In this document: one piece after another, positions 6,490 through 32,722 of the stretch
Position numbering within the stretch: the stretch's first letter is position 1
Layout: every line of letters starts with the position of its first letter
The notes under the pieces: generated by a model
What the model was told of the DNA's origin: nothing
Seen by the model: only the letters and a program-made list of their open reading frames with translations
Databases searched by the model: none
Made by a program: the position numbers and the translations under genes
Origin: Phormidesmis sp. RL_2_1
GTDB lineage: Bacteria > Cyanobacteriota > Cyanobacteriia > Phormidesmidales > Phormidesmidaceae
DNA length: 34,452 bases
Reading direction: 5' to 3'
NCBI GenBank assembly: GCA_012033015.1
Contig: JAAUPS010000019.1
Coordinates: forward strand, 1-34,452

Positions 6490-7943
6490 CTAGTAAGCGC
6501 CAGATTTCTTTAAAACGACCCCTACTGTTTTAAGCAAAATGGAAATATCTAACCACAGCGACCAGTTTTCAATGTAGCTGAGATCAAGCCTAAGCACATC
6601 TTCAAAATCTTCGATATCCGAGCGGCCCGATACCTGCCAAAGACCAGTGATACCAGGCAGCACTTCATGGCGAATAAAATGATGTTCAGAGAATCTTTCC
6701 ACATCTCTAATCGGCAACGGGCGAGGCCCCACTAGGCTCATTTCGCCTCGCAGTACGTTAAAAACCTGAGGCAGTTCATCCAAACTATAATCTCTTAACC
6801 ACTTGCCCACCTTGGTAATGCGGGGATCGGCTGCCATCTTAAAGAGAATCCCGTCTTGTGTTTTATTCGCACTTTCTAATGATTGTTGCAGTTGATCGGC
6901 ATTAGTCACCATGCTGCGGAACTTCCAAACCTTAAAAGGCCGACCATGTAAGCCTATTCGGGTTTGACGATAGAACACTGGGCCCGGAGAATCGAGCCGA
7001 ATCAACAGCATAATTGCCAAGTAAATCGGCGACGCTATGATGAGGATAATCAGCGCGCCAATAAAGTCAAAAATTTGCTTGATCTTAAAGTCTATGCCTG
7101 TGAGGACGGCAGGATTGAAACTCAGGGAAGGCAGCCCACCAATCACCCAGAGGTCGGCACCTTTAAATAAGGGCTCATCTCTGACAGGAATCACTCTCAA
7201 GGTAATACCGCTATTTTGAAAATGCCACGCTAGAAACAGTCTCTGTTTAATCGCGTGCCAAGTGACAAAAACCTCTGTAGCACCCATCCGTTTGAATCTT
7301 GCAAAGGTGGCTGCTCGCTCACTGCGATCTAGCGATCGCGCCGATAAAACACCTTGAATAATGTAGCGATTCTCACGATTGATCAGCTCAACTGCCCGCT
7401 CTTTATCCACAGCATCCGCCACCACAAATACCGGATAGTTAATTACGCCCTTTTGACGCAGCAGCCTAGTGGCCACATCAATCAAAAAATGAGCCAGACA
7501 GGTCGATAATATACTCAGCGATAAAAATATAAAAAATGAGATCTCGATACAAACTGATCGGGCGCGTAGAAAAACGCTATCAGCAGCAGCAGCGCATTAC
7601 CCAAAATGACTGCCTTGACCAGTCCCCGGTAGTCGCGTCGTTTATCGCCTTCTGCATAGAGCCCTCTAGCCGCCATAATACTGACGATAGTGCCAACCAC
7701 AGGGAGCACAGCGTAAGGGTTGACCTCTAATCGCCAAGGTGAATCCATGGGTGTGCTTAAGTGATTAGACACGAGCCAAGCCAACGCTAAAAATAGCGAA
7801 TCGACCATGAGTAAAGAAGAAAATCGCAGCCACTTAAACACTGTTCCTTTCCGAAATGTTGAAATTTGCGGTGAACGCAAATCGCTTGGGTGGCTAGCTT
7901 CTAGCAAATGTGGATGCTTAGTTTTGAGGACATTGCGATACAT
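6490..7943 (-). CDS. WbaP/CpsE-type initiating sugar transferase, one frame break
   Basis: Transfers a sugar-1-phosphate (usually glucose or galactose) from a UDP-sugar to undecaprenyl phosphate, starting an exopolysaccharide repeat unit at the inner membrane. The N-terminal part (from ATG 7943) has hydrophobic spans. A Rossmann-like CoA-binding region follows (VFVVADAVDKERAVEL). The C-terminal third is a bacterial sugar transferase domain: the membrane anchor KIKQIFDFIGALIILIIASP, then PGPVFYRQTRIG, FKVWKFRSM, DELPQVFNVLRGEMSLVGPR and GITGLWQVSGR. The frame breaks at the A6 run on the plus strand (7531-7536). Adding one A gives SHFFIFLSLSILST and full length, about 484 residues. It is the last gene of the minus-strand polysaccharide cluster. 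Confidence 0.92.
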
Positions 7944-8015
7944 GGTGATACTTCCAGAGCGATAGACTAGGAACCCGGCTTAATAAGTATTGGATGAAAT
8001 ACTCAAGTTCAAGAT

Positions 8016-8804
8016 TTAAAACAACAACAGCTTGAGAATGAACCAAGGCTCAACTAAATATCTTTGCCATAGACGCGCTGGCTCAGCGACTAGGCGAAAT
8101 AGCCACTCTAAGCCCCAGCGGCCAGCCCATCTCGGTGGGGTCGGAACAGCCCCTGCCACATAGTCAATGGCCGCTCCAGAGGGCAAAATAACGTGGGTTT
8201 TTAGTTCGGCTAGATTGTCTGCAATCCAATGTTCTTGCCGCGGCATACTCATGCCCACCATCAAAATATCGGGGCGGTAACGGTTGATGGTCTCAACCAC
8301 TTGCTGATTATCATCACTGTTGGGATCAGCATCGAAGTATCCGTGAGCGACCTCTATTTGCAGCGACGGATGCTTTTGGCGAAGAACGCAGGCCCCTTGT
8401 TCGGCGACACCGGGCTTTGATCCTAAGTAAAAGATTCGCCAGTTGTTCTGAGCGGCCTCTGCCATGATTGAATAGACCCAGTCGGCATAGGTCACTCTAT
8501 GCTCTCTTTGTAGTGGCAAGCCTAGGAGCTTTGCTAACAGCACAATGGCCATGCCATCAGCATGAATAAAGTCGGCCTTGGCGTAAAAATCGCGCATTTT
8601 ACGATCGTGATGATACACGTAGAGGCTGTGCATATTGTGGTTTGCAATCACATAGCGCTCATCAGTCACAATCGCCTCTTTGAGCAGCGCGTTGAGATCA
8701 ATCACCGTGAGGGCGTTGAGCCAAGTGCCTAAAAACCTGTGCGACTTCCGGGAGATCCCTACAGCAGGCCGTTCAACCGTCAACATTTTTTTAGAAGATA
8801 ACAA
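8016..8804 (-). CDS. WecG/TagA/CpsF-family glycosyltransferase
   Basis: A GT26-type enzyme that adds a sugar (N-acetylmannosaminuronic acid, ManNAc or a related residue in known members) to a lipid-linked intermediate in polysaccharide assembly. At 262 residues it matches the family. Landmarks are the acceptor-site region FIHADGMAIV (Asp83), MVGMSMPRQEHW near residues 180-192, and the basic C-terminal RWGLEWLFRLVAEPARLWQR that docks at the membrane. The TTG at 8804 has a GGAG nine bases upstream. An ATG at 8786 is the alternative. It lies 72 bases before the WbaP-type gene on the same strand, as expected for a second-step transferase. The sugar is not predictable. Confidence 0.93.
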   Translation of the reverse strand: MLSSKKMLTVERPAVGISRKSHRFLGTWLNALTVIDLNALLKEAIVTDERYVIANHNMHSLYVYHHDRKMRDFYAKADFIHADGMAIVLLAKLLGLPLQREHRVTYADWVYSIMAEAAQNNWRIFYLGSKPGVAEQGACVLRQKHPSLQIEVAHGYFDADPNSDDNQQVVETINRYRPDILMVGMSMPRQEHWIADNLAELKTHVILPSGAAIDYVAGAVPTPPRWAGRWGLEWLFRLVAEPARLWQRYLVEPWFILKLLLF

Positions 8805-9172
8805 CTTTCCCTACTCCTGCAGCATGGGTAACGGCTTCAACGTGGCCCTTGAGATGAGCCCTTTAGATTGGGCCCTTGAGATGAACCCTTGAGATTGGGC
8901 TCGTATATCCTACGTCCGTCTACGCACTGTCCATAGATGTACTGTCCGTAGATGTACTGACATCGTTACAGGATTAGACCGAAGCTTATCTGCTAAAGTT
9001 CCATAAGTAGAACATATGGCTGTTTTTCACATCTGGCTGATGGGGTCGGCATCTGACGGTTATCGTTTGTTGCAACCATTGCATTGCAGCGCAAAATCAC
9101 ACAGATTTACACCGCCTGCCTTGAGATCACCTGTTGATATCGATGAGATGTCTGAATTACTGCTTTTCTGAA
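8805..9172. other. Intergenic gap inside the polysaccharide cluster
   Basis: 368 bases with no gene. It contains imperfect direct repeats built on CCCTTGAGAT(GA)/AGATTGGGC (8846-8902) and two copies of ACTGTCC(A/G)TAGATGT (about 8927-8957). The gap may hold a promoter for the last two genes of the cluster, but I cannot point to convincing boxes. Confidence 0.55.
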
Positions 9173-10347
9173 TTACTGCTTTAAGATGTTGGCAACTTTT
9201 TGCGCGATCGCAGCCCAAGAATAGTCCGACTGAACCCGCTCAAACGCTGCTTCTGCCAGCGGTTGGTAAGCTTGAATATTTTGGCAAACGGCCAATAGGG
9301 TCTTGGCCATATCTGCAGCCGAATCTTCTGTGACCAATAGGTGCTGACGGTGGTGAAACGCCTCTAGCCCTCTCATCCCTTCAGGCGTGGAGATCACCAG
9401 CGTTTTACAGGCCAAATAGTCCATGGCCTTGTTTCTCGCGCCCCCAGCCACTGCAGCTTTAGGAAAGGGTAACAGACCGATGTCAGCGTAGTGCAAATGG
9501 GCCAAAAAATCTGCCCGACTTGGTAAAAAACCGGCAAAAGAAAGATTTTTGGGCAGTTTGCTATGGGTTTCTGGGGCTTCTCGGCCAATCACCACCACAT
9601 GAATTTCCTGAGCATGGGCCGTTAGGCACTCGGCAATATCGATTGATCGCGCCACAGACATGTCATTTGTCGGAAATTGAAACGTTTTCGGAGCGACCAC
9701 CACCGCAATTTTGGCAGGCCGCAGTGCTTGGTAGGGATCTGGCTCGCCTGAAAAGTTCAAAATGTCTTCAGGGATGCCATTGCCTAGGCAGTAAATGCGA
9801 TCGCTACTGACACCAAACCATTTTTTGATTCCCTGCACCACGGGCTTCCTGCAGCAATAATGGGTTTACCAGAGAGCACTAACAGACCCTGGGCCAGATA
9901 GGTTTTGACAAGCTGCTTAAGTTCTTGCAATGGCTGTGGTGAAGTGGATAGACGACTCCAATACTCAAAGGCAGAAAGGGTATGAAAATCGAAGACAAGG
10001 GCAGGTTTTGGGATGGTGTTTTGGGGCACAGCAGGTTTTGAGCTGGCTGGCTTTTTAGGAAAGCTACAGGCAATCAGCGCCGCGATCGCAGGCAAGGTTT
10101 CCTGGGCGTACACCACATCTGGCTGAAAATCGACCATGCTCTCGCGAATAGTCTTGATATAGGTGCTCAGGCTCCTATCGCCCACAGAGATACTTCTGGC
10201 ATAGTCCACCGCCGAACAATCGAGCCCTAACTGACACACCTCAAAATGCTCAGCCAAATACAGGCCTAAGTAAAAAGGGCGGGTAAAGGCTCCAAACGGT
10301 TCTTTAGAGTCCAGCGTTGAGACAATCAGTAACCGGCGTCTCATCAC
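9173..10347 (-). CDS. Glycosyltransferase family 4 (group 1), one frame break
   Basis: A GT-B fold glycosyltransferase for exopolysaccharide assembly in the cytoplasm or at the membrane face. The N-terminal half (MMRRRLLIVSTLDSKEPFG) is an acceptor-binding Rossmann domain. The C-terminal half has the donor-side features GVSSDRIYCLGNGI, FAGFLPSRADFLAHLHYADIGLLPF, GARNKAMDYLACKTLVIST and GLEAFHHRQHLLV. The two halves lie in different frames. Adding one base near 9841 joins IIAAGSP to VQGIKKWFG, giving about 391 residues, usual for the family. The GTG/ATG start (10347/10344) immediately follows the stop of the upstream GT2 gene, so the two are translationally close. Donor and acceptor are unknown. 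Confidence 0.88.
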
Positions 10348-11253
10348 TTAGCGCTCCTCTGTAAACGTGGGCGAAGCAGCCAAGTCACGGTAACCAATCA
10401 CCGCGCGCACATAGGGCAAACCCCAATAAGCAAACCAAAAAGGCCCCGAGTGCCTTCTGACAAATGTGGTCCAAGGCCGCAATGGAAACCCTTTGACCCC
10501 TAATACCTTTTTGAAGCGCTCCAACAGCGTTAAGCGGGTATCCACCCAGCTTCCCGAGACACTGTTTTGGGCACATTGGCCAATGTAGCCAGGGGCCAAC
10601 CAAACGCTGCAGCCCTGCTGCTGCGCCCGCAAGCCATAGTCCAAATCACCCAAACTATGCACAAAGCTTTTGTCGATGTTGCCCACTACGTTCGCAACTT
10701 CACGGGGAATCAGCACGCAGTTGCCATACATAGTTTCACATTCGCTAAGGCGATCGCCCGACGGGACAAACTCAAACTTATTCGAGTACCACTTGCGGGT
10801 ACGAATCGCGCCGCCATAGGTAGGCTCTCCCGTAAGTGGATCTTGGGTAGAGCCCACCACTATCGCATTAGCCCTGTTTTGAGCAGCAAGCTCAGCGTGA
10901 CAGGCCAACAAATCGGCAAAGGCATCGGGCCGCAGGATGGTGTCATCATTGAGCCAAAGGTAGTAGTCATAGTCTGCCTTAAGCGCCTCAGCAAAGGCCA
11001 AATGCATACCGCCGCCCCAAAATAAACTGCCGCTGCCTTGAATGACATTCACCTGGGGAAACTGACGATTAACGGCCGCAGTGGTGCCATCCGTACTGCC
11101 GTCATCGACCAAGTACACATCAAAACGAGTGCCTTGCTGATGCAAAGCCGCCAAGCACTCACAGGTTTGCTCTCGCCGGTTATAGCAGGTTAAAAGCACC
11201 GCTAAAGATGGCGCAAGACTTGATTTTTCAGCGAGCCGCGTGTTTTCAGTCAT
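10348..11253 (-). CDS. Glycosyltransferase family 2
   Basis: A GT-A fold glycosyltransferase, probably cytoplasmic, acting on the exopolysaccharide repeat unit. The N-terminal nucleotide-sugar site shows LLTCYNRRE, VDDGSTDGT (residues 49-57) and the metal-binding WLNDDT (100-105). The remainder (HSLGDLDYGLRAQQQG and the FVRRHSGPFWFAYWG tail) is like rhamnosyltransferase-type GT2 proteins. 301 residues is the expected length. It sits between the polymerase-like gene and a GT4 gene, on the same strand, and its stop is adjacent to the next start. The sugar transferred is unknown. Confidence 0.93.
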   Translation of the reverse strand: MTENTRLAEKSSLAPSLAVLLTCYNRREQTCECLAALHQQGTRFDVYLVDDGSTDGTTAAVNRQFPQVNVIQGSGSLFWGGGMHLAFAEALKADYDYYLWLNDDTILRPDAFADLLACHAELAAQNRANAIVVGSTQDPLTGEPTYGGAIRTRKWYSNKFEFVPSGDRLSECETMYGNCVLIPREVANVVGNIDKSFVHSLGDLDYGLRAQQQGCSVWLAPGYIGQCAQNSVSGSWVDTRLTLLERFKKVLGVKGFPLRPWTTFVRRHSGPFWFAYWGLPYVRAVIGYRDLAASPTFTEER

Positions 11254-11364
11254 GTGTTTTCAACAATCGATAAATTAAAAAATCAGGCTTAAAAGGGGAG
11301 ATAACAACAAAATCAAAACAACAAAATTGATCGCCAGGACTCACCATTAGGGATCACAGGCCAT

Positions 11365-11419
11365 ATCCTCTACACATCCTCTACACATCCTCTACGTATC
11401 CTCTACGTATCCTCTAGTG
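11365..11419. repeat. 11-bp tandem repeat, five units, reaching into a stop codon
   Basis: Unit atcctctacac, with later units atcctctacgt and a last atcctctagtg, five in a row. The array begins outside the wzy-like gene and includes its stop codon and last codons (gene end 11403). Confidence 0.9.
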
Positions 11420-12675
11420 TGGTCAGAGCCGTCACCTTCAAGCAAGCGATCAAAATGGCCAATGAAATCAAAATCAGCCATCCTTGGGGCCACATAACAT
11501 TTGAGATAAAGGCCCACAAACAGTAACCCACCACCGAACAGAGTAAGGCCCTTCCTGTGGTTGCCACCTCTTTGTTTTTAACCATAGAGAGCTTGAAAGC
11601 CTCGAACAACAGTACAACCAAAAACCCCACATAGGTCAAAGCGCCTAGCGCTCCCCAAGCGACAAAAGCCCAAACGTATCCGCTATGAGAAGGGACAACT
11701 TCATCGGTCAAGGGGTCAATAACGTTTAATAGCTCAGCCACAAATTCCCATCCCCTTGAACCAAAACCAAACAGCGGTGAATGCTCCATCGTATAGTTGA
11801 TCGTGGGTACCCAGGCGTGCTCTAACCGCCAGCCCAACGTTCCACCACCTTGAGATTCTGCCGCAAAAAAACGATTCACAATGGTTTCACTTGCTGCTGC
11901 CATTCCGGCACCAAGCAGCGCTAACGGCCCGGCAATGCACAAAAACCGATAGAGTGAAATCCGCCAATAAAACCAAGTCGTCAACAAGGGTAAAGATATT
12001 AATAAAGCGGTTCTGGTGCCGTTAAAACAAGCACCAATGGAAAATAAATTAAGAGCGTCCACCGCAGTAGCCCTCGTTTGATGCCCTTTTGTTGCTCAAT
12101 CCACAGCAGCACCAAGGGCAATATGGTGACAAAGCCATTGGCATCTTCGTTGGCACTGCCAAAAATGCCTGAAAGCTGCAGTCTTTCGCCTAACTGTCCG
12201 TAGTTAGACAAGGCACTGCCTAGGCTGCCACCGGCCTGTAAAACGATGCTCGGATATCGCAAAATACCTACGGCAAAGATGACCAATAACATCCATCCAA
12301 TGCTTTTTTTGATTTGTTCAACGGTGATGGGATTAAGCGAGAGGATAATCGCAAAGTAGAGTAAAAACCAAGTGGTGAACCTAACGCTACCAGTAGCGTG
12401 GGTTGGTAAAACCGCCTCGGGCAATGCCACAAGCTGCAGCAAATTAATAGACAGTAAAATGATCGGCGGTAAGCACAATGGCATCAGATGTTTCATTTTT
12501 GCATGGTCTGCCGAGGCAGCAACGCCACAATAGTGAACAGCAAAAAAGGAATGGTGGCTAGCCGAAACAATCTGATAAATGAATTGACGCTCGGCGTTTC
12601 TGCCACCACATGGACTGAGGTGACTAAGTAAAAGCAAAATAGGGGTGTCAGAAAATCTTCAGCTTTAATTTTCAT
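11403..12675 (-). CDS. O-antigen ligase/Wzy polymerase-like membrane protein, two frame breaks
   Basis: A polytopic inner-membrane protein expected to polymerise (Wzy) or transfer (ligase) lipid-linked repeat units in the periplasm. The joined protein of about 424 residues has some 10-12 membrane spans. The family signature TGTRTALL (usual form GSRT/GTRT) precedes the large periplasmic loop that ends in SPLFGFGSRGWEF and PSHSGYVW, including the conserved His. It is split by two one-base losses: at the T5 run on the plus strand (12496-12500), joining TMQK to MKHLMPL, and near 12020, joining LVLVLT to GTRTALLIS. The start ATG (12675) overlaps the end of the upstream GT4 gene by 11 bases. Wzy and ligase cannot be told apart by sequence alone. 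Confidence 0.87.
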
Positions 12676-13951
12676 CGGTCGAATCAGAAAGGGCCACCTC
12701 TTGAAAGAGCCAAGCGTATCGCTTTGCCTGAATAGCTAGCGTAAATTGGGTGATGACGCTTTCTCTCGCCTGTTTTGACAGTATATTTTGCTGTGAGGCA
12801 TCCTTTAAAATAAATCTCATGCCTGCCGCTAAGTCCTGTGCCTCGTAGGGCTTTGCCAAATATCCGTTGTTTTGATGCTCGATCATATCGGGCATCCCAC
12901 CAATATCAAACGCGAGGCAAGGTACCCCACAGGCTAATGCTTCTATGACCGTATTCGCTAGGTTCTCTTGGACAGAGGGCAAGACAAAAATATCTGCGGC
13001 TGAATAGACAAAAGAGAGTGAGAGATCGTCACTAAAACTGCCTAGATAATGGGTCTTAAAGCCAAATTTGGGCGGATCTTTGGGTTCACTGGCCCCGAAG
13101 ATAGCCACCTCTACTGTCTCAGCTAGTTCGGTGTGACTCAAGTGCTGCAGTGCCGCTTGTAAAAGGGGGAAGCCTTTGCGCTGATCGCTCGTCGCCATCA
13201 GGGAACCGAATAAAATTATTTGCTTGTCTTGTGGCAGCCTCAGCGCTGCTCTGGCGACTTTTTTCTCCATGGGCCGATAAACGGCAGGATCAATGCCGTT
13301 GGCAATGCACTCGACTCTGTGTTGGTTCAAAAGCGTGCTGGATTGGGCGCATTTTGTAGCCACTGGCTAGGGGTGACAATGGTTAGGTTAAGGCCCTTAA
13401 AGGCTTTGAGCTTGCGCTGCCAGATCCTATGGGCGAGGTCTTTGGGGTTATGGCTTTGGAGTTGGGGACAACTGTAACAGCGCTCTTGGTAGCGATCGCA
13501 CCCTTGATCGTAATGACATCCGCCGGTAAATGCCCACATATCATGCAGCGTCCAGACGATAGGCTGCGGTAATTTGGCCAAGGTCTCAATTTGGACAAAG
13601 CCATTATTGACCCAATGTAGATTCACCACATCTGGCGCAAGCTGACGCACTTGGCGAGCCACGCCATCGCCTAACCACTGCGGCGAAAAATTTTGTTTCC
13701 GGGCGCTGACGGTATTTTTTCAGCGGCAGTTGATCCAATGTCAGCCGGAGTCCTGCCTGGGCCTGGGTCAGCCCAGAGGTGGCCTTGCCGCCGATCACCT
13801 GTGCATCATCACTTTGCTTGACCTGCACCAACATTTGCGAAACCAGCCTGTCGGCAATCGCTTCGGTGCGCTGCAATCCCTGATGCAGCCGAAAAGCTGC
13901 TCGCGCGGCACCGCCATCGGTGTCAGAAGTACTTACAATTAAGGCTTTCAT
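12665..13951 (-). CDS. Glycosyltransferase family 4, two frame breaks
   Basis: A GT-B glycosyltransferase of the exopolysaccharide cluster. The start at 13951 reads MKALIVSTSDTDGGAARAAF, a typical GT4 glycine-rich acceptor loop. Later come VNLHWVNNGFVQIETL, WTLHDMWAFTGGCHYD with a Cys-rich stretch (CDRYQERCYSCPQL), IANGIDPAVYRP and the donor site SAADIFVLPSVQENLANTVIEALACGVP. Frame breaks occur at the A5 run 13686-13690 (one extra base; corrected reading ETKFSPQWLGDG) and at the T4 run 13354-13357 (one missing; corrected reading SQWLQKCAQSSTLL). The corrected protein is about 428 residues. The TLHDMW and C-rich segment are common in GT4 enzymes of the WcaC-like kind; that subtype is inferred. 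Confidence 0.87.
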
Positions 13952-14025
13952 GGGGTTTTTTAGATCACATCCACAGCACGAAACATTATTAGCCGCCGTC
14001 GGGCGATCGCCAATGGAGCTGATCG

Positions 14026-16290
14026 TTAACGACTGCCAGAGGTGGCATCCACTTTCATCACATCTGCCGAGATGTCAATATCAGCATGGGCAGAAGAGGC
14101 CCCCACCCGGTAAGCATTTTCTCGCGGAGAAACGCCGTAGGGTTCATACTCGGGTAAGGTGCCATTGACGACGATGCCTAAAACATTTTGGTGCGATCGC
14201 TCAATCAGCTCTTTGCAATAATTAGCGCTGGCCGCATCGGCGATCTCGGGTCTGACCACTAATAGCAACCCATCCGACATCTTTCCTAGCACCGAGGTGA
14301 TGGCGCCGCCACTGAGCGGCGGCGAATCGAGAATAATATAGTCAAATTGAGCCTGAAAAACCTCTAGCAGCTTGAGCATCCGCTGGGAATCGAGTAGGGC
14401 CACAGGGTTGGGCAGTGGCGTTCCCGCCAGCATCACCATCAGGTTGGGCATGACCTCTGTAATCGAATGATTCAAAGAACTCTGACCGGCTAACATATCG
14501 CTTAAGCCACTTCTAGCACCGCTGGCTGAACCACTGGCCGTGCCGTTTGCCGTGCCCATTTGATCAGGGATTTGCCACACCCAATGCTGGATCGGACGAA
14601 TTAAATCAGCATCAATGAGCAGTACCCGTTGGCCCGTTTGAGCCATAGAGGCTGCCAAATTACTGGCCACGGTAGACTTGCCTTCATTGGCCACTGAACT
14701 GGTCACCACGATAGTTTTAGGTGGGTTTTCAGTACTAAAAAACTTGAGATTGTTGCGAAGCATATGAAACGCTTCACTGTAGGGAGAAAAGTTGGCATTG
14801 GAGACCACAACTCGCGGAATCATGCGCTCATCGTTACCCCGACGGCGTGCGATCGCACCGGTTTCGCCAAAGCTAGGGATAATCCCCAAAACAGATAGGC
14901 CAAAACTGTCTTTGGCATCCTCGACACTTTTAATCGATTTATCACGCGCGGCTAACAAAAAGGCCACCGAAATCGCCATCAGCGTGCCCAGCATCGTACC
15001 AGCCGCCAAATACAGATTCAAAGGTGAGCTCGCACCCAATACCTCAGCAGGCTGAATAATCCGAACGTTGCCAACGTTTTGATTTTCTACCACCAGAACT
15101 TCTTGCAGTCTTTGGAGTAGCAGGCTATAGGTTGATTGAGCGGCTTCTAGCTGACGCTCTAGCTGGCGTTGCTCTTGCTCTAATTGAGGCAATATATTGG
15201 CCCGATTGGCATAGGAATCTCTGGCTGAAAGGAGTACCTGTGCCTGATTACGCAGACCGTTTAGCTGAGCTTCTAACCGGATATAGTCACCGACTAAATC
15301 AATTTCAGCCTCGCCGAGCTGCAGGTTGGTAGGCACATTGCCAGACTCAATAGCAACATCACCCACTCGATCGCTCAGCAATTGAGATAGGTTATCGAGC
15401 CTATTTTGTAAATCTACAATCGTAGGGTGCTGATCTTGAAAGCGAACTCGCTCAGTGGCTAACTCAGATTCTACCTGTTGATACTCACGAAGAACCTGCT
15501 GAACCCCTTCTGATTGGCTAACTGCAGTGGCGGCTAGGGCTGTTTGAGGATTGCGACCAACGCGATCGCGGAAAATATTAAACTGAGCCTGCGTATCTGA
15601 GAGCTGGGAGTTAATATCCGTAATTTTGTCAGTGACATCACTCAAAGCGAACACTGTTTTAGTCGTTTCTTCATCTAAAGCAACGATTTGATTGCGCTCT
15701 TTAAAATCACGTAACGCCGCTTCAGCCTGTAGCGCTCGCTGCTCAGCATCCGGCAGTTGCTTTTCAATAAACTCACGAGCAGCCACCGCCTCAGCCCGAT
15801 TCTCCCGTAAATGCTGCTCCAAATATACCGCCATCAGCGTATCCACCGCATATTTGGCGATTTCAGCCTCTTCTAGGCGAATCACCACCTGCAAAATATC
15901 GGTTTCCGACTCATGCGTGATATCCAGCTTAGACAACAACGCCTGAGGATCGACAAGTTCGTCCTCAGCATCTCGTAGATTAAGCCGCTCAATCGTCTCC
16001 CTAATCACCGGTACCGTACGCATTAGCCCAATTTCTGTCGAAATTGGATTGCTGATGCCATCTAGAGAACTCAACTTGCCACGCTCATCTGCCAATCCGG
16101 CCAATACTGAGGTATCGTCTTGCCTTTTGACCCGCACTTTTCCCTCAGCCGTATACAGAGGGTCCTTTAAAAAACCAACTGTACCAACCGCCGCCGCAGT
16201 CACCCCAAAAGCAAAGAGCGCAGGCAACCACTGTCGTCTCAAAATTCGCCAGTAGTGGGCCAAATCTATCTCTGTATTTTCTGCCTGCAT
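14026..16290 (-). CDS. Wzc-type polysaccharide copolymerase and BY-kinase
   Basis: An inner-membrane protein controlling chain length and export of polysaccharide, autophosphorylating on tyrosine. The 754 residues show the Wzz domain (IDLAHYWRILRRQWLPALF, first membrane span at about 18-40), a long coiled-coil periplasmic region (about 100-430), a second span (LYLAAGTMLGTLMAISVAF) and a cytoplasmic kinase domain. That domain has Walker A (SSVANEGKST, about 533-542), Walker A' (VLLIDADLIRP) and Walker B (YIILDSPP, about 650). The C-terminal tail has only three tyrosines (in EYEPYGVSPRENAY), fewer than the cluster of classic Wzc, so strong multisite phosphorylation is less certain. A clear SD (GAGGGG) precedes the ATG. 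It lies next to its export partner. Confidence 0.95.
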   Translation of the reverse strand: MQAENTEIDLAHYWRILRRQWLPALFAFGVTAAAVGTVGFLKDPLYTAEGKVRVKRQDDTSVLAGLADERGKLSSLDGISNPISTEIGLMRTVPVIRETIERLNLRDAEDELVDPQALLSKLDITHESETDILQVVIRLEEAEIAKYAVDTLMAVYLEQHLRENRAEAVAAREFIEKQLPDAEQRALQAEAALRDFKERNQIVALDEETTKTVFALSDVTDKITDINSQLSDTQAQFNIFRDRVGRNPQTALAATAVSQSEGVQQVLREYQQVESELATERVRFQDQHPTIVDLQNRLDNLSQLLSDRVGDVAIESGNVPTNLQLGEAEIDLVGDYIRLEAQLNGLRNQAQVLLSARDSYANRANILPQLEQEQRQLERQLEAAQSTYSLLLQRLQEVLVVENQNVGNVRIIQPAEVLGASSPLNLYLAAGTMLGTLMAISVAFLLAARDKSIKSVEDAKDSFGLSVLGIIPSFGETGAIARRRGNDERMIPRVVVSNANFSPYSEAFHMLRNNLKFFSTENPPKTIVVTSSVANEGKSTVASNLAASMAQTGQRVLLIDADLIRPIQHWVWQIPDQMGTANGTASGSASGARSGLSDMLAGQSSLNHSITEVMPNLMVMLAGTPLPNPVALLDSQRMLKLLEVFQAQFDYIILDSPPLSGGAITSVLGKMSDGLLLVVRPEIADAASANYCKELIERSHQNVLGIVVNGTLPEYEPYGVSPRENAYRVGASSAHADIDISADVMKVDATSGSR

Positions 16291-22347: not shown

Positions 22348-23196
22348 ATGGCAGCCTTTACAGATAACCACTGGCAGGATAGTAACTGGCAGTCGTGGTA
22401 CCAAAATTTTGATGAGCATCACAGCCTAGCAGAGCGTCGTCACTGGTATAGCCAAGTTGCAACTGCCTATCGATGGGCCAGACCCCGCTATCCGAATACT
22501 CTGATTGAGCAGGTCATCGCACAGGCAAAACTCAGCGCAGCCGATGCTTCACCAGGCTCAATGTCAGCTTCTGTTCTAGAAGTGGGTTGTGGGCCAGGGA
22601 TTGCAACCGCCGCCTTAGCAGCCAAAAACTTAACAATTACAGCGATAGAACCGAGTTCAGCCGCCTGTGCCTTAGCCCGCCAAGCCTGCAAAGATTATCC
22701 AAACGTCAACATTTACAACAGCACCTTCGAAGAGTATCCGCTCAATACACAACAATTTGATGCGGTGCTCGCCGCCACCTCCTTTCATTGGCTCTCCCCC
22801 GATACGGCCTGCCAAAAATCAGCCGCAGCGCTTAAACCAGGAGGTTCACTCATTTTGCTATGGGCAACGCCACCCCAGCCCAGCGCAGAAATTTGCCATG
22901 CCCTACAACCCATCTATGATCGCTACCAGCTTTCTGACATGGGTCAAGAACAATATCGCACCCAAGCTTACTACCAGCACAACTTCGAGACACTTGCAAA
23001 CACCGTAAACGACTCTGGTTTTTTTCAGCCTAGCCGCGTTACGATTCAACGCTGCCAGTCCACTTACAGCATTGAAAAATATCTGGCCTTGCTGAGCACC
23101 CTCTCTGGCTATATTGCGCTCGAAGAACAAGTCCGAGAAAATTTGCTGTTGGCCTTATCAGCGCAATTGGCCCAACAGCTAGAACAGGTGCACTAG
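22348..23196 (+). CDS. Class I SAM-dependent methyltransferase
   Basis: A soluble Rossmann-fold methyltransferase of 282 residues. The SAM-binding motif I VLEVGCGPGIAT lies at about 76-87, the acidic end of strand 2 is in ITAIEPSS, and motif II-like residues occur in FDAVLAATSFHWL and LKPGGSLILLWATP. The TSFHWL segment and the C-terminal YLALLSTLSGY are like the Methyltransf_11 proteins annotated as trans-aconitate-type or unknown methyltransferases. The substrate cannot be assigned. The C-terminus (AQLAQQLEQVH) may be shortened by another one-base error, since hydrophobic and Trp-containing codons continue in the next frame; this is only a suspicion. Confidence 0.9.
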   Translation: MAAFTDNHWQDSNWQSWYQNFDEHHSLAERRHWYSQVATAYRWARPRYPNTLIEQVIAQAKLSAADASPGSMSASVLEVGCGPGIATAALAAKNLTITAIEPSSAACALARQACKDYPNVNIYNSTFEEYPLNTQQFDAVLAATSFHWLSPDTACQKSAAALKPGGSLILLWATPPQPSAEICHALQPIYDRYQLSDMGQEQYRTQAYYQHNFETLANTVNDSGFFQPSRVTIQRCQSTYSIEKYLALLSTLSGYIALEEQVRENLLLALSAQLAQQLEQVH

Positions 23197-25376: not shown

Positions 25377-26131
25377 ATGAATACAGACTCTCAAACCAAA
25401 TATATTGCCGCTTTAATTGAATTACACCGTGGACTTGATCGCAAAGGGCCGGGTGACTCTGATTTCTCGCGCAATATTTTGAACAGTCTTGTTACTTTAC
25501 CTCCCAAGCCACGAATAGCTGATCTCGGCTGTGGCAGCGGTGCTAGCGCATTGCTACTAGCCACACACTACCAGAGCACCGTCAAGGCAGTAGATGTCTC
25601 CTCGGTTTTTATCGATGAACTCAAAACTCGCGCAAACAGCTTACGCTTGAGCATGTCATCATTCCGATTCAAGGTGACATGGCTCAGCTCGATTGGCCAG
25701 AGGGCTCGATTGACCTGCTTTGGTCTGAAGGAGCTGCTTATCATCTTGGGTTTGAGCAAGCTCTTAAAATCTGGCGACCACTGCTTACGAACCATGGCAT
25801 TGCCGTCATATCGGAGATCAGCTGGTTAACGGATAATGCGCCACAGCCTGCTAGCGCTTATTGGCAAAACGCCTATCCAATGATGGGGACTGAGGCTGAG
25901 AATGTCGCTAAAGCCAGTAGGTCTGGCTTTAGCGTCCTTTCTACACATCGGCTGCCGAGTCGAGCTTGGTGGCTCAATTATTACGAACCGCTCCGTAAGC
26001 GAATGCAGTTGCTGCTCGAAATCTCCCCCAGCCATCAATCCGTTATTCGTGAAACTGAAGAAGAAATGAGACTATTCCAAAAATTCAGCAGCTCCTATGG
26101 TTATACATTCTATGTTCTGCAAGCAGTTTAG
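25377..26131 (+). CDS. Class I SAM-dependent methyltransferase, one frame break
   Basis: A soluble methyltransferase with motif I IADLGCGSGASALLLA at about residues 46-61 and strand 2 VKAVDVSS. Near 25646 one base seems missing. Adding it joins NSLR to LEHVIIPIQGDMAQLDWPEGSIDLLW and the rest of the fold (GAAYHLGFEQALKIWRPLL, GIAVISEISWL). The corrected protein is about 252 residues. The EGAAYHLGF and EISWL segments are seen in uncharacterised methyltransferases in bacteria; the substrate is unknown. It begins 59 bases after the YdcF-type gene on the same strand. Confidence 0.85.
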
Positions 26132-27289: not shown

Positions 27290-27698
27290 AGAAATTACAA
27301 CTCATTAGGCTGAGATGACACATAGCGAATCAAATTACGGTCTCTATGTGCGCATCATTGTATGCGTGCATCAAATATTACGCACCAATCCCTGTGCAAA
27401 ATTTTGCAATTATACGGAAACTTTCGGGGCAATTTGCTCCCTGGGATATTTATGTAGAAAGTTTCAGCGTAATTATTTTGTTCAGGGTAGTATCGTGTAG
27501 AGGGTAGATATACAGAAGGCTGCCGTATATTAGATTTTTAGGTCGCTTCATACCCCGGTGTAGTCGGTGCATAAATATCCTGGTTGTGTGCAAGAAATCA
27601 AGAAAATCTTCATTGAGGTGGCAATCATAAGAAGTAGATTGTTATACTAAGCCGTTAAATATAAGGTTATTAGTTAGTGCCATTAGGGCAGATCAAAC
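27290..27698. other. Intergenic region upstream of the cupin gene
   Basis: About 410 bases without a convincing gene. A perfect 14-bp palindrome TGCAAAATTTTGCA is at 27395-27408, about 106 bases upstream of the cupin start, and could be a regulator site. A short frame at 27315-27500 has no recognisable features. The stretch ends at a transposon terminus. Confidence 0.55.
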
Positions 27699-27713
27699 GA
27701 CTCTGTTGCAAAA
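27699..27713. repeat. IS6-family terminal inverted repeat (one end)
   Basis: GACTCTGTTGCAAAA matches the known form of IS6-family ends (GG-TCTGTTGCAAA). It lies about 42 bases beyond the stop codon of the IS6-type transposase remnant. The matching other end (TTTGCAACAGAGCC) was not found near 28200. Confidence 0.75.
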
Positions 27714-27754
27714 AAATAACTGAGAAGAAAATATCACTATTGATATCTTCCCCA

Positions 27755-28205
27755 TTACACAGCCACTCCGAAGATTTCATTGATGAAAGAGATCTGTCCC
27801 ATGACATCTCCTTTTTCGGCACCGTTAATCTGGCCCTTACAAATCATGTTCACCGCCTCATACCCTTTGAGCGTACGTCGGGCAGTGTTGAATGAAGCAA
27901 ACCCTAGGCCAGCCTTAGTGCGCTGTTTTATGAATCGGTGATCTTGCTCGGCAATATTGTTCAAATCCTTGACCTGCTGGGTTCCCGTCGCTTTGGGCAA
28001 GGATTTATCTTTCTTTATCTCATCGAGCGCAGGCGGATAAGCCGCATTCTTATCCACTGTCATTACCCTGGGCTCATTCGACCTTCACGCCCCGCTCTCA
28101 CATCATTTCCTTCCAATCCCGGTCGCTCAGGCTACAGCGTAGATCATCACACCGTCAGTAAGATAATTTCTGGCTGAAAGTGACGCCACTTGAACGGTTC
28201 TGAGG
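27755..28205 (-). pseudogene. IS6-family transposase remnant with internal deletion
   Basis: Reading on the minus strand, the N-terminal signature FKWRHFQPEIILLTV is visible at about 28155-28197, then a decayed SLSDRDWKEMM-like stretch with stop codons, then an open frame of 102 residues from 28063. That frame has TVDKNAAYPPALDEI, LNNIAEQDHRFIKQ and GYEAVNMICKGQ. In IS6 transposases the second catalytic Asp is in TDKN and the Glu in the EQDHR region. The part with the first Asp (DETY) is missing, so the enzyme cannot work. One transposon end remains at 27699-27713. Confidence 0.88.
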
Positions 28206-28283
28206 AAATCATGAACTATTCACAGACGCGAGCGACGACACCGTTAGATCGCCCGGTTGGTGATCGACATCCCGTTTTTTCAA

Positions 28284-28568
28284 CACTTTTTTAAGACTGC
28301 CGCTTGTCCTTATCCTGACTACGGCACTCTGCCTGCCCAGGTGGTAGCCATTTCTCCAGATGCATTGCCTGCTAGGCAAATACCCGGAAACCTACCGGTC
28401 AGCCACCTTTATAAAGTGACCCTACAGCTCCAACAGGTTTTCTTGGAAGCCGAAGGGCCCAACTACACTATCCAATCTGGAATGGAAGCCCGTGCTGATA
28501 TCCTCACAGAGAAAGCGACCGTGTCGCAATATCTACGCCGTCAACTTCGGCTTACTACCCAGATGTAG
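28284..28568 (+). pseudogene. C-terminal stub of a HlyD-type secretion adaptor
   Basis: The frame (open from 28257) reads PYPDYGTLPAQVVAISPDALP, then LYKVTLQLQQVF and GMEARADILTEKATVSQYL, ending in RRQLRLTTQM. These match the C-terminal beta-barrel and tail of membrane-fusion proteins of ABC/type I exporters, which in cyanobacteria typically end in a similar RKLRL tail. The usual N-terminal membrane anchor, hairpin and lipoyl domains are absent; upstream sequence is unrelated. So this is a truncated relic of an exporter, about 95 of an expected 400-500 residues. It lies 384 bases before a peptide gene with an export leader. Confidence 0.75.
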
Positions 28569-28951
28569 TCCGTAGCTTATCGATCGGATTAAACTCAGGA
28601 AGTCTCAGCTTGCAGAGGATTCTGGGCAGGAAGACATGGGCAATACAACATTTCAATTTTGGGCAGATAAGGAGTTTAGTGAACTTTGACTTCCGACAAT
28701 ATACTGATACAGCTACTGACATAGCGGAGCGGCTGTGCAGTTACCCATAGCTTTAATCATCGCCAGTGCTTCATCAGCTAGTCATAAAACGCCTCCGACG
28801 TTAAAAAGTAAAACATACCATCTTCACACAAGATTCCGAAATTACTCTCCTTTGTACAACCCTCGATTATGTTTCTATAAAAATAAGCAAATAAGAGATT
28901 GTTGCTTTTTCACACACTCTACCCAATTAGTAAATACAAACCTATTATCCT
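28569..28951. other. Gap between exporter stub and GG-leader peptide gene
   Basis: 383 bases without a recognisable gene; the second half is AT-rich. A promoter for the peptide gene is expected here but no clear -35/-10 pair was found. A frame at 28735-28968 has no support. Confidence 0.5.
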
Positions 28952-29176
28952 ATGTTGGCTCCTTTTAGAAATCAAAAGAAGACTGATGTTCAAGTCATCT
29001 CTGGCACCGAAGCGCTTTGGAAACCTTTAGAAGAAAAGCAAGAAGAAATCATTAGCGGTGGCAAGACCGTCATTGGCTACGCCTATTATGGTGCGTCCGG
29101 GCAGGTTAGCAAGTCTAGATACGACTGGCTCCAACGTAACAACCTGTATAGTTACAAGACCCCGATTTTTGGCTAA
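28952..29176 (+). CDS. Double-glycine leader peptide, candidate bacteriocin/RiPP precursor
   Basis: A 74-residue peptide. The first about 37 residues look like a leader: acidic with ALWKPLEEKQEEIISGG, where the final GG is the classic cut site of peptidase-containing (C39) ABC exporters, with hydrophobic and acidic residues at the usual spacing before it. The 37-residue core begins KTVIGYAYYGASGQV and ends YSYKTPIFG. It has five Tyr, several Ser/Gly/Asn/Lys and no Cys, so lanthionine or disulfide forms are excluded. The gene lies 384 bases after the stub of a HlyD-type exporter, which supports the peptide-export reading. No maturase or C39 transporter is in the window. The ATG at 28952 has no clear SD. 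A small non-secreted protein is the alternative. Confidence 0.62.
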   Translation: MLAPFRNQKKTDVQVISGTEALWKPLEEKQEEIISGGKTVIGYAYYGASGQVSKSRYDWLQRNNLYSYKTPIFG

Positions 29177-29231
29177 CTCAAAATTACCAGGGCAGAGTAG
29201 CTGAAGGGGTGTAACCAAAATCTGATGTAAG

Positions 29232-29264
29232 CCCTGTAAGCCTTTATCTAAGAGGTTTACAGGG
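29232..29264. terminator. Hairpin downstream of the GG-leader peptide gene
   Basis: Arms ccctgtaagcc and ggtttacaggg pair over 11 bases with one G-T wobble around an 11-base loop, 56 bases after the peptide stop codon. No T run follows, so a terminator role is uncertain. Confidence 0.4.
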
Positions 29265-29717
29265 GACGTCAATATTTCCTGACTAAATCTCGATTTTAAG
29301 CATTCGGAAATGCCCAGATTCCTTGCGAGCAGACTGCAGTCAAAATTGATCTCCACATCAAAATTAGGTCACACCCAGATGAAGTAGCATAGTTGAACCA
29401 AAATTCATTGGTAGGTTTTTATCTGTGACCACGCGCGTGATTCTGTGAATAGTTTCTAACTACGTTCCGTCTCTAGGATTACTGGACGGAACAGAATCGA
29501 CGGTTAGGTATTACGGGTATCAACTTAAAGCGAAACACAACGACCAAGAATAGCAGTATCAAATCATACACATAGTGAAAAAGCTCTGTGGATTGTCATA
29601 GAGCCTTATATCGTAGCCCTGAGAACAAAGGTCGGATACGATCGCCTATGTATAGAGCACTGTTGGCTAACTCCAAAAACATCAGAAAAACGGTAAGCTG
29701 AGGCAGATCTATTGCTA

Positions 29718-29749
29718 TCAGGAAGTGCGATCACCAAAGCACTTCCTGA
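29718..29749. repeat. Perfect 11-bp inverted repeat next to an IS1182-type remnant
   Basis: Arms tcaggaagtgc and gcacttcctga around a 10-base spacer, 13 bases before the remnant start. It may be a terminator-like hairpin that insulates the transposase, as is common at insertion-sequence ends. Confidence 0.8.
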
Positions 29750-29761
29750 AGAAAGAATGCT

Positions 29762-29935
29762 ATGTCCCTAAAGCCTCAAGCAGACTTGCTAGTGCCTTCT
29801 GATACACAGCGAGTTGCCAAAGCGGTCTTCAAGAAAGGCAATCCCTAGGTGACACTGCACGATGAATTCGGCCAAGCTGCCGAAGCGGTGCGTTCTGACA
29901 AGTCAGCGCTACGCGAACACGTATCGACGTTGAGG
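29762..29935 (+). pseudogene. IS1182-family transposase remnant
   Basis: From ATG 29762 the frame reads MSLKPQADLLVPSDTQRVA, then KAVFKKGNP, a TAG stop (29849-29851) and VTLHDEFG. This matches the conserved N-terminus of IS1182-type transposases (MSLKP...P..T..VA..AF.KGN...LRDELG). It then jumps to QAAEAVRSDKSALR, which in intact enzymes lies further downstream, implying an internal deletion. Only about 58 codons remain. Confidence 0.65.
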
Positions 29936-30049
29936 CTAAAACAATGTCTGCAAGTTGGAATTTTGAATTGCTGAGTTCACTTAGCCTATGATCGGGGCAA
30001 ACTCTAATCGAGAAGCTTGGTGAATCGAGAAGCTTGATGAGACTCAACG

Positions 30050-32722
30050 ATGATCAGGGATAGAAACGTATTGGATCTGGTTTGTTACCCCGTCACCATA
30101 GCAGTCCTAGGATTCTGTTGGGTCTTTCCCCTAGGTAGCCAGAATCCAGTTAGGGCAGAGATCATAGAAGATGGGACGGCAGGCACGGTCGTGACCGATT
30201 TAGGCGCTTACACGTCAATCACAGGTGGAACCCAACAACTGACCACCTTATTTCACAGCTTTGAAAACTTTTCGCCAGAGACAACAGCCGTTTATTTTGA
30301 GTTGGATCCTACAAACCACAGTGCTGTAGATTTGGTGCTGGCACGAGTAACCGGGGGGAATACTTCATTTATTGATGGCACTTTAGGCTTATCTGGAGGG
30401 AATAGCCCCGATCTGTTCTTGATCAATCCCAACGGCATTACCTTTGGGTCGGGAGCCTTCTTGGATCTTCCTGGTTCGTTGATGGTCTCTACTGCCGACA
30501 GTGTGTTGTTTGCAGATGAACTCAACTTTAGTAGCAGCCATCCAACTGCACCACCACTGTTGACCTTGAGTACTCCCATTGGTTTACAGTTTGGGGCAAC
30601 AGCTACTCCAATCACGGTAGAAGGAAGCTTCCTAGAAGTCCTACCGGGTGAATCCTTTGGCTTTTTTGGGGGAGATGTGACACTGAGTGGCGCATTTGTG
30701 TCTGCCCCAGCAGGCGTTCTGGCGATCGGCAGTGTTTCATCCGGCAGTCGGGTCGCTATTGCTGGTGATACCCTACTGGCAGACTATGCCAATGTCAGCG
30801 AGTTCCAAGATATCTTACTGAACCAAGCTACCTTTGCTGATGTGAGTGGTGATGGCGGCGGACGGTTTCAACTTCAAGGGCGAGTGGTCAGTCTGACAGA
30901 AGAGGCATTTCTCGCCGCTGATAACTTTGGTGCTACCGATGGTGGCACCGTCAGTATCCGTGGTTCAGAACAGGTGCTCCTTTCTGGTCCCAATGACCCG
31001 CTTGCCTTTTCAACAGCGATCTTTTCAGGAGCGTTTTCCACTGGTCAAGGCAATAACCTGTTGATTGAAACCGATCAGCTAATCTTGAGTGAATTGGTCA
31101 ATGTTGCAGTGGATGCCGGTGACGCAGGCGCAGCTGGCAATCTCACAATCAACGCCACCGAGATTCATCTGATTTCGTCCATGGAGCCAGTTTCAGGTCC
31201 AGTATTGAGTGCAGAAACCTTTGGATCAGGACAAGGTGGCGATATCATCCTGACCGCTGATGTGCTCACGGTCGATAATGCAACAATTACAACGTCTACC
31301 TTTATTAATGGCAATGCCGGAAACATCAATCTCAAAGTGGGGACTCTCGAGCTCAGCAATCTGGCTCAGATAGATAGTGCAACCCTTGGCAGTGGCAACG
31401 GTGGCGAATTAAACGTAACCGCTACAGAGTCTATCAGCATCACCGGGAACGATGTTGTCCTAGGGAATGCTTTCTCAAGCGGATTTTTTGTATCGGCTGA
31501 TCCTGGAAGTACAGGCTCGGCTGGCAATCTGTCCCTGACGGCCCCGGTTATTAGCATTCGTGATGGGGGTACGGTGTCTGCCAATACCTTTGGTTCTGGG
31601 AATGCGGGCAGTATTATGATTCGGGCCGAGGAACTCTATGTTGCCGAGCCCATATTTTCCTTGACAGCCGTTAGTGGCATTGTGACAACTGTTGTCCCTG
31701 GGGCGAGTGGCCAAGGAGGCTCCATTGATATTAAAGCAAACCGGGTAAGGGTTTTCAATGGTGGCCAAATTACAGCATATACCCAAGGCAGCGGCAATGC
31801 AGGCAATCTAAATATTCAGGCTGGCGAGATTCAGGTGACGGGTGCGTCCAATACACTATTGCTGCCAAGTGCGATTACGGCCACATCTTCTACTGCTGCA
31901 TCAGCAGGTTCAATAAGAATAGCGGGTGGTTTGGTGAGCATTGAAAATGGCGCTGAAATCTCGGTCAGTAGCACTCAGGGTGGTGGTGCAGGTGATCTTG
32001 AGATTTCTGCGGATAGTGTTTACCTCAACGACGGCTTTCTATCCGGCAATGTTTCTGCTGGGATAGGAGGCAATCTAAATCTTTCGACCCAAGACTTGCT
32101 GCTACTTCGTAATGGTAGTTTGATCAGTACCAGTGCCACGGACACGGCTACTGGAGGAAATATTTTTCTCAACGCACCCATTATTATTGGTACTGACAAT
32201 AGTGACATCATTGCCAACGCCGTATTCGGCTCCGGCGGTAACGTCAATATCACAACAGACTTATTGCTGGGCTTAAAATTTCGCGAGCAGCGTACGCCCA
32301 TGAGTGACATTACGGTTAGCTCAGAGTTTGGTCTCAGTGGGAATGTTGAGATCAGCAATATTAATACCGATCCGGTTTCTTCGTTAGTTGCTCTGCCCGA
32401 GAATCTATTAGATGCCAGTCGTCAGATTGCTCCGCGATGCGAAGCGAACGAGGGATCTTTTACGATCACCGGGCGTGGTGGGTTGCCACCCACACCTGCC
32501 CAAGACGTTACCCATAGCCCCTGGCTAGACTTCCGTGTCACGGATCATCACATCAGTGCCACGGATCATCACATCAGTTCTGGAGAGCCCCTTGAGGTTG
32601 TCAGTGTGGAACCACTAGCTGAAGCGGATACTTGGCATGTTAACCCAGTCGGTCAAATTGAGCTCACTGCTGTCGTGAATTCTAAACCTAGGATTCACGA
32701 CAAAGCCACCTGCTCTCAGTAG
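30050..32722 (+). CDS. Two-partner-secretion exoprotein with filamentous-haemagglutinin N-terminal domain
   Basis: A large secreted beta-helical protein, exported through a TpsB pore and possibly an adhesin. The 890 residues begin with a signal peptide (hydrophobic VTIAVLGFCWVFPLG, cleavage likely near VRAEII). The TPS domain follows (about 38-190: TTLFHSFENFSPE, DLFLINPNGITFGSGAFLDL), then a long glycine-, serine- and asparagine-rich repeat region typical of a right-handed beta-helix. The C-terminus has the cyanobacterial signature QIAPRCEANEGSFTITGRGG LPP, then PWLDFR, a short duplication (TDHHIS twice) and a final Cys. The frame is intact, in contrast to the decayed neighbours. No TpsB gene is in the window. 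Confidence 0.93.
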   Translation: MIRDRNVLDLVCYPVTIAVLGFCWVFPLGSQNPVRAEIIEDGTAGTVVTDLGAYTSITGGTQQLTTLFHSFENFSPETTAVYFELDPTNHSAVDLVLARVTGGNTSFIDGTLGLSGGNSPDLFLINPNGITFGSGAFLDLPGSLMVSTADSVLFADELNFSSSHPTAPPLLTLSTPIGLQFGATATPITVEGSFLEVLPGESFGFFGGDVTLSGAFVSAPAGVLAIGSVSSGSRVAIAGDTLLADYANVSEFQDILLNQATFADVSGDGGGRFQLQGRVVSLTEEAFLAADNFGATDGGTVSIRGSEQVLLSGPNDPLAFSTAIFSGAFSTGQGNNLLIETDQLILSELVNVAVDAGDAGAAGNLTINATEIHLISSMEPVSGPVLSAETFGSGQGGDIILTADVLTVDNATITTSTFINGNAGNINLKVGTLELSNLAQIDSATLGSGNGGELNVTATESISITGNDVVLGNAFSSGFFVSADPGSTGSAGNLSLTAPVISIRDGGTVSANTFGSGNAGSIMIRAEELYVAEPIFSLTAVSGIVTTVVPGASGQGGSIDIKANRVRVFNGGQITAYTQGSGNAGNLNIQAGEIQVTGASNTLLLPSAITATSSTAASAGSIRIAGGLVSIENGAEISVSSTQGGGAGDLEISADSVYLNDGFLSGNVSAGIGGNLNLSTQDLLLLRNGSLISTSATDTATGGNIFLNAPIIIGTDNSDIIANAVFGSGGNVNITTDLLLGLKFREQRTPMSDITVSSEFGLSGNVEISNINTDPVSSLVALPENLLDASRQIAPRCEANEGSFTITGRGGLPPTPAQDVTHSPWLDFRVTDHHISATDHHISSGEPLEVVSVEPLAEADTWHVNPVGQIELTAVVNSKPRIHDKATCSQ

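Follow-up and report, generated by a model that had tools for sequence, protein, structure and literature searches.

A double-glycine leader peptide gene between an exporter remnant and a two-partner secretion gene in the cyanobacterium Phormidesmis sp. RL_2_1

Introduction

What is the nature of a small peptide gene that carries an export leader and lies beside the remains of an exporter? The question is posed by a stretch of 34,452 nucleotides from Phormidesmis sp. RL_2_1, hereafter the window, in which an open frame at 28952–29176 follows a piece of a HlyD-type adaptor gene. The window is contig C436 of its assembly (G000; 5.56 Mb in 436 contigs, completeness 95.71, contamination 6.98%). 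An orphan double-glycine (GG) peptide beside a broken exporter is a known kind of locus, and the more interesting point lies outside 28952–29176: it is the GG gene together with a gene for a two-partner secretion (TPS) exoprotein. We lean, by a modest degree, towards the view that the product is a C39-exported peptide of the EbfG/PteB kind, surface-related and linked to TPS genes, and more than mere debris of a bacteriocin locus.

Results

The gene runs on the forward strand from an ATG at 28952 to a stop codon that ends at 29176, and encodes a precursor of 74 residues, MLAPFRNQKKTDVQVISGTEALWKPLEEKQEEIISGG before and KTVIGYAYYGASGQVSKSRYDWLQRNNLYSYKTPIFG after the predicted cut. The leader (28952–29062, forward strand) has 37 residues and ends in EALWKPLEEKQEEIISGG, with the two glycines at residues 36–37, after which a C39 peptidase is predicted to cut; its assignment draws on two leader alignments (A2 and A3) and a leave-one-out HMM described below. 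The core (29063–29173, forward strand) is of equal length and contains eight aromatic residues, six of them tyrosine, five lysines or arginines versus one acidic residue, and no cysteine; a preliminary description of the locus had likewise called it Tyr-rich and Cys-free. With a codon table trained on 13 window genes, which themselves score 0.06–0.22 per codon, the frame attains a log-odds of 0.153 per codon (leader 0.265, core 0.042), a value reached by none of 96 spurious open frames inside the training genes and by one of 72 intergenic open frames. Codon use typical of genes, together with a leader that scores above shuffled sequences, thus bears out the 74-residue gene with a GG leader of that description, and the gene is confirmed as real. 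An Rfam scan of 27500–30100 gave no match. Neither a promoter nor a terminator of the peptide gene was found above chance, and the lack of a promoter-like site on the forward strand between 28569 and 28952 counts against the reading that we favour.

How typical is the leader? For a general comparison, 21 GG leaders were hand-picked from a screen of 20 exporter regions chosen through matches to the HlyD stub or the C39 family; two of the 21 come from the window's own genome, and the peptides of C108 (L064), L076, L077, L079 and most of L078 were screened yet excluded from the set. An ungapped PSSM of these leaders gives the peptide 23.0 bits, a score that no shuffle out of 20,000 attains, and ranks it third among 2220 six-frame open stretches (nine stretches of its own genome); the two ranked above it are GG peptides from C207, of which one belongs to the training set. 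A local HMM of the same leaders assigns it only 8.7 bits, with 2 of 20,000 shuffles scoring higher. The hydrophobic residues I−4, L−12 and W−15 stand where we take GG leaders to carry them, around an acidic middle, and where alignment A1 also has them, the agreement being weaker in the local general HMM. The glutamate at −11, a position held by S or T in most other leaders, counts against our preferred reading.

A narrower leader type emerges from the relatives, beginning with weak whole-peptide matches in G039 that turned out to be GG peptides sharing its motif. We define it here as the LW type: LW (LF or FW once each), Q−8 and E−6 in most members, and then GG (LW..Q.E..GG). A five-row profile (A2) found eight further leaders at E <= 0.006, and the 13-row profile (A3) finds 14 leaders at eight loci in 4 of the 63 genomes of the order, 13 of which went into A3 and so match it necessarily. 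The loci lie on C436 (the window), C236 and C108 of G000, on C12 (four copies), C4 (four copies) and C9 of G039, on C544 of G043 and on C3 of G014. Trained on 12 LW-type leaders with the window peptide excluded, an HMM gives this peptide 15.4 bits, again unmatched by any of 20,000 shuffles, and ranks its frame best of 620 in the window, which places the leader within the type. Across 388 genomes of the class, A3 matches at E <= 0.002 in 17 genomes, four of them being the genomes with LW-type loci, which belong to the host's family. Outside this family it yields 22 leaders in 17 regions, with both C39-ABC and HlyD genes in 12 regions and neither in five; the 12 regions indicate that the model does find C39 substrates. 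Among the 20 out-of-family leaders inspected, 17 have ELF before the acidic stretch and one has LW, so that the LW type does not form a class of its own but belongs, as a variant, to a more widespread cyanobacterial leader. Two GG peptides from regions with C39-ABC and HlyD genes (L212 in G525:C1 and L207 in G218:C37) have extremely Tyr-rich cores.

The peptide matches no family in Pfam, NCBIfam or PHROGs at E up to 10, in keeping with the earlier remark that the core belongs to no known family. It shares the GG cleavage site with NHLP and Nif11-type RiPP precursors and matches none of their models in Pfam or NCBIfam at the same limit, both of which presumably contain them. No homologue was found in the PDB at E up to 1 or among plasmids (a single match of 33.9% at E 0.6), and none of 108 pattern stretches in genome_contigs or 12 in viral_contigs was confirmed. 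Whole-peptide matches at E <= 1 occur in 21 of 143 relatives; G092, which carries an EbfG4 peptide, is not among them, so that similarity to the EbfG family is absent at this level. Four of the 24 weak whole-peptide matches in other genomes (E 0.005–0.9) have GG leaders: two on G039:C12, one on G039:C9 and one on G134:C27. A short frame on G043:C730 has KGG at the matching place and no methionine before it, and was taken as a chance match; all others form part either of longer or stop-broken frames or of short frames that lack a GG leader. A core shared with the peptides of G039:C12 and G000:C236, suspected by eye, was rejected when the window core ranked 4434 against 5000 shuffles. Neither the 143 relatives nor 386 genomes of the phylum yielded an orthologue, and the same is true of plasmids, viral_contigs and genome_contigs; selection on the frame is therefore beyond measurement. 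Conservation of the frame in related genomes, which the preliminary description had proposed as a test of itself, thus found no support, and the lack of orthologues and of core similarity to the G039:C12 and G000:C236 peptides counts against our preferred reading.

Upstream of the gene lies the C-terminal stub of a HlyD-type adaptor (28290–28568, forward strand), approximately the last 92 of some 443 residues, which was recognised by homology and has no Pfam match. Its open frame starts at 28257, the first part being without homology; residues 12–103 correspond to residues 349–443 of a 443-residue HlyD frame on G043:C669 with 44% identity through the last residue, and the identity to the HlyD of G000:C108 is 31%. 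The truncated adaptor noted earlier therefore proves to be a real C-terminus, from which about 348 N-terminal residues are missing. The closeness of the two genes also holds, with 383 rather than 384 bases between the stop codon of the stub and the ATG of the peptide gene. HlyD genes of this type adjoin C39-ABC and GG peptide genes in several relatives, and no cognate C39-ABC gene lies near the peptide gene: the window holds the stub only.

Mobile elements flank this arrangement. On the reverse strand at 27749–28214 there is an IS6-type remnant, identified by Pfam (the C-terminal part of DDE_Tnp_IS240 in 27755–28063) and by repeat comparison; two pieces of it align at 78% identity with a copy on G000:C178, the stretch between the pieces having been lost. 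Since this remnant is also disrupted and lies about 75 bases from the HlyD homology, the event that cut the adaptor gene can be inferred only. A MITE-like repeat of approximately 170 bases (29207–29376, no strand assigned) starts thirty bases 3′ of the peptide stop codon. It has imperfect inverted ends, GGGTGTAACC and GGTCACACCC, as well as a near-perfect inner inverted repeat, CCTGTAAGCC and GGTTTACAGG; elsewhere in the assembly it has two matches of 119–164 bases with 89–93% identity (C433:7390–7552 and C91:14380–14498) and one of 35 bases (C91:8301–8335). Further on, a short frame at 29762–29848, MSLKPQADLLVPSDTQRVAKAVFKKGNP (28 residues), has no Pfam match, and we take it to resemble the start of an IS1182-type transposase. 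The Pfam scan of 20 window proteins recognised no RiPP-modifying enzyme; methyltransferase domains occur at 22348 and 25377, roughly 3–7 kb upstream of the peptide gene. The gene of the second domain is apparently split into overlapping frames at 25377–25829, with the domain match, and 25679–26131, without one.

Could the peptide be exported from another locus, as had been suggested? The assembly has five C39 matches, all on contigs other than the window. On C108, an intact C39-ABC gene (740 aa, with C39, ABC membrane and ATPase domains) and a HlyD gene of 442 aa adjoin an LW-type precursor and an AAA_35 gene. The suggestion of a possible exporter elsewhere is thereby supported, and the shared leader type makes C108 a plausible candidate for the exporter in trans; with 436 contigs and 6.98% contamination, C108 may derive from another organism than the window. 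At two further loci, C39-ABC, HlyD and TPS genes are each split into two frames on C207, as is the ABC gene on C363. The remaining two, C427 and C145, were scanned for leaders only. C39-ABC and HlyD genes are both absent from the fetched region at four of the eight (G039:C12, C4 and C9, and G000:C236), two of which are tandem arrays; both genes are found at C108, a piece of C39-ABC at G043:C544 and G014:C3, and the HlyD stub in the window. AAA_35 (AAA-like) genes adjoin the LW-type GG genes at L064 (G000:C108, 4653–6002) and L131 (G000:C236, 6606–8201).

Five of the eight LW-type loci have a TPS gene close by. As a rule, TPS exoproteins are large, beta-helical, and either secreted or located at the cell surface. 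The gene in the window (30050–32722, forward strand, 890 aa) matches PF05860 at E 5.4e-40, and its domain lies 1093 bases from the leader; the nearest TPS domain is 1150 bases away at C236, 499 at G039:C12, 519 at G039:C4 and 483 at G043:C544. The contigs of C108 (8033 bases) and G039:C9 carry no TPS match, and the nearest to G014:C3 is 1.03 Mb off; since its contig ends 44 bases past HlyD, C108 is uninformative on this linkage. The matches number 13 in G000, 16 in G039, 10 in G043 and 15 in G014. Under uniform placement, five of eight loci within 1200 bases correspond to P 4.5e-9 (four of seven without the window, P 3.5e-7), three of eight within 600 bases to P 1.5e-5 and five of eight within 2000 bases to P 2.9e-8; these values are guides only, because the limits were set with the gaps already known, and a model of uniform placement takes no account of the clustering of genes.

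A tree of 48 TPS domains contains two sister pairs, G000:C236 with G039:C12 (99/99) and G039:C4 with G043:C544 (100/96), and LW-type GG genes adjoin all four. The GG-linked TPS genes cluster modestly on the tree (6 changes, with 13 of 500 shuffles as low), the nine GG rows of this count including G097:C128, a true TPS frame whose row is truncated at the region end, contains 13 stops and sits in the wrong place. With other GG leaders, GG, C39-ABC, HlyD and TPS genes stand together on one strand at G000:C207 and at G011:C264, where the TPS gene is cut by the contig end, and G097:C128 has TPS, GG, C39-ABC (in two frames) and HlyD on one strand. At L184 (G097:C12), a TPS gene and the frame from 2694 point away from each other; the latter encodes a GG peptide whose core, WSDWGWTDWGTWYADAAADAAYYGY, is rich in Trp and Tyr.

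The search was also run in the reverse direction, from 48 TPS regions that comprise all loci of G000, G039, G043 and G011 and three of the eight of G097, several of them cut by contig ends. A GG leader of at least 15 bits was found in nine, eight of which were already known, so that the 40 newly fetched regions contributed one; a reversed-sequence control gave none in 9373 frames. The GG-bearing regions number 3 of 13 in G000, 2 of 16 in G039, 1 of 9 in G043, 1 of 7 in G011 and 2 of 3 in G097. None of the 17 out-of-family leader regions has a TPS gene next to the leader, which, like its lack at G039:C9 and G014:C3, counts against our preferred reading. Both this result and the yield of the newly fetched TPS regions speak against a TPS link as a general rule. 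In the window itself, 873 bases including inserted elements lie between the peptide and TPS genes, which makes a shared transcript doubtful. Literature searches, with most subscription journals outside their reach, returned nothing that joins cyanobacteria, double-glycine and two-partner secretion; as far as they reach, the TPS link of a GG leader type has not been described.

Discussion

The closest parallel is offered by Synechococcus elongatus PCC 7942, where the GG motifs of EbfG1–4 and the C39 cysteine of PteB are reported to be needed for biofilm and for efficient export (PMC4997328), and where EbfG1–3 form amyloid (PMC9981879). Here too, small proteins with GG motifs are associated with a C39-type exporter. 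The HlyD stub of the window matches the HlyD of G092, whose neighbouring peptide contains LLQTANSVAAAIAK, listed as a peptide of mature EbfG4 in PMC4997328, and the window core shares its richness in Tyr with the EbfG1 and EbfG2 peptides given in that paper. The differences are equally apparent: the core is unrelated in sequence, the exporter in cis is broken, the leader is of the LW type and a TPS gene is adjacent, whereas G073 and G092 have no TPS match at all. The parallel would thus be one of working in a like manner only.

The second point of comparison is the survey of Wang 2011 (PMC3140520), which gives 290 precursors in 145 clusters from 58 genomes, with very little core conservation, and calls such peptides putative bacteriocins. 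Its clusters resemble the present locus in having a GG precursor near C39-ABC and HlyD genes, a hypervariable core and frequent rearrangement, being often truncated, inserted or frameshifted, partly via transposases. The window differs in that the TPS neighbour is a main feature here, whereas neither "hemagglutinin" nor "two-partner" appears anywhere in the survey's main text. The peptide is also distinct from the TPS exoproteins themselves, as it matches no Pfam family and has an export signal of a different kind.

Is the gene, then, what remains of a bacteriocin or RiPP operon that has died, the C39-ABC gene and most of HlyD having been lost beside an IS element and export having ended? The preliminary description saw it as the survivor of such a locus. 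This view is partly supported, as its two grounds, the GG leader and the truncated adaptor, stand. The truncation near the IS6-type remnant, the MITE-like element just downstream, the split-frame genes at C207 and C363 and the frequent decay of the clusters in Wang 2011 are what such a history would leave behind. It does not account, however, for the intact peptide frame with its gene-like codon use, for the intact exporter at C108 or for the recognised neighbours, which include no modifying enzyme; nor does a mere survivor fit well with the absence of exporter genes from the fetched regions of half of the eight LW-type loci, or with the TPS gene, passed over in that description, that adjoins five of them. 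We therefore hold a dead operon to be fairly unlikely.

An active antimicrobial or signalling function, as a class II bacteriocin or pheromone-like peptide exported in trans, appears quite improbable. GG leaders with C39 exporters do serve both bacteriocins and peptide signals, which speaks for it, yet neither an immunity gene nor a modifying enzyme was recognised near the peptide among the 20 window proteins scanned. Wang 2011 names cyanobacterial peptides of this sort putative bacteriocins (PMC3140520), but a characterised cyanobacterial case, EbfG, acts in biofilm (PMC4997328). That the frame merely resembles a GG leader by chance we regard as very improbable indeed. Such a frame would be expected to have no homologue and a modest score in the local general HMM, both of which are observed, and one intergenic frame does equal its codon use; against this, two leader scorings are unmatched by any shuffle, the codon use is gene-like, and the gene is flanked by a HlyD piece on its 5′ side and a TPS gene on its 3′ side, an arrangement with parallels at related loci.

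We return to the preferred reading of a C39-exported, surface-related peptide. From the frame, the leader, the stub, the intact exporter genes and the TPS linkage, all established by computation, we infer how the gene would be expressed and its product cleaved and exported, by which exporter, and what role or contact with the TPS protein it may have. The precursor would be translated, as its codon use supports, and its Glu/Gln-rich leader recognised by a C39 domain that, judging from the leader, would cut after Gly37. A C39-ABC and HlyD pair would then carry the 37-residue Tyr-rich core across the envelope. Because only the HlyD tail of the adjacent exporter is left, this would take place in trans; C108, whose genes are intact and whose precursor has a leader of the same type, would be the most plausible route, provided that it belongs to the same organism. 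By analogy with EbfG/PteB, and given the TPS neighbour, the core would most likely act as a small component of the surface or matrix. Polysaccharide genes at about 6490–16290 (sugar transferase, WecG, glycosyl transferase 2 and Wzz/GNVR with a P-loop domain), some 13 kb from the peptide gene, are compatible with a surface theme.

A bolder proposal can be made, which we consider rather unlikely as a whole and put forward tentatively. LW-type GG peptides and TPS exoproteins might form a two-component surface system in the host's family of cyanobacteria: the peptides, which often would come from tandem arrays and leave in trans through a C39 type I exporter, would bind to a large TPS protein that takes another route out of the cell, or cap it, or polymerise on it. 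On this view, the window would be a copy of the system that has been rearranged and can still be read.

Conclusions

Cyanobacteria commonly encode GG peptides, most of which bear the label of putative bacteriocin with no function tested. The repeated occurrence of one leader type beside TPS genes, including sister TPS genes across genomes, suggests a testable role for some of them as small partners of large secreted proteins. GG genes without an adjacent exporter need not be debris, and two kinds of protein, the GG peptide and its large secreted neighbour, may cooperate at the cell surface.
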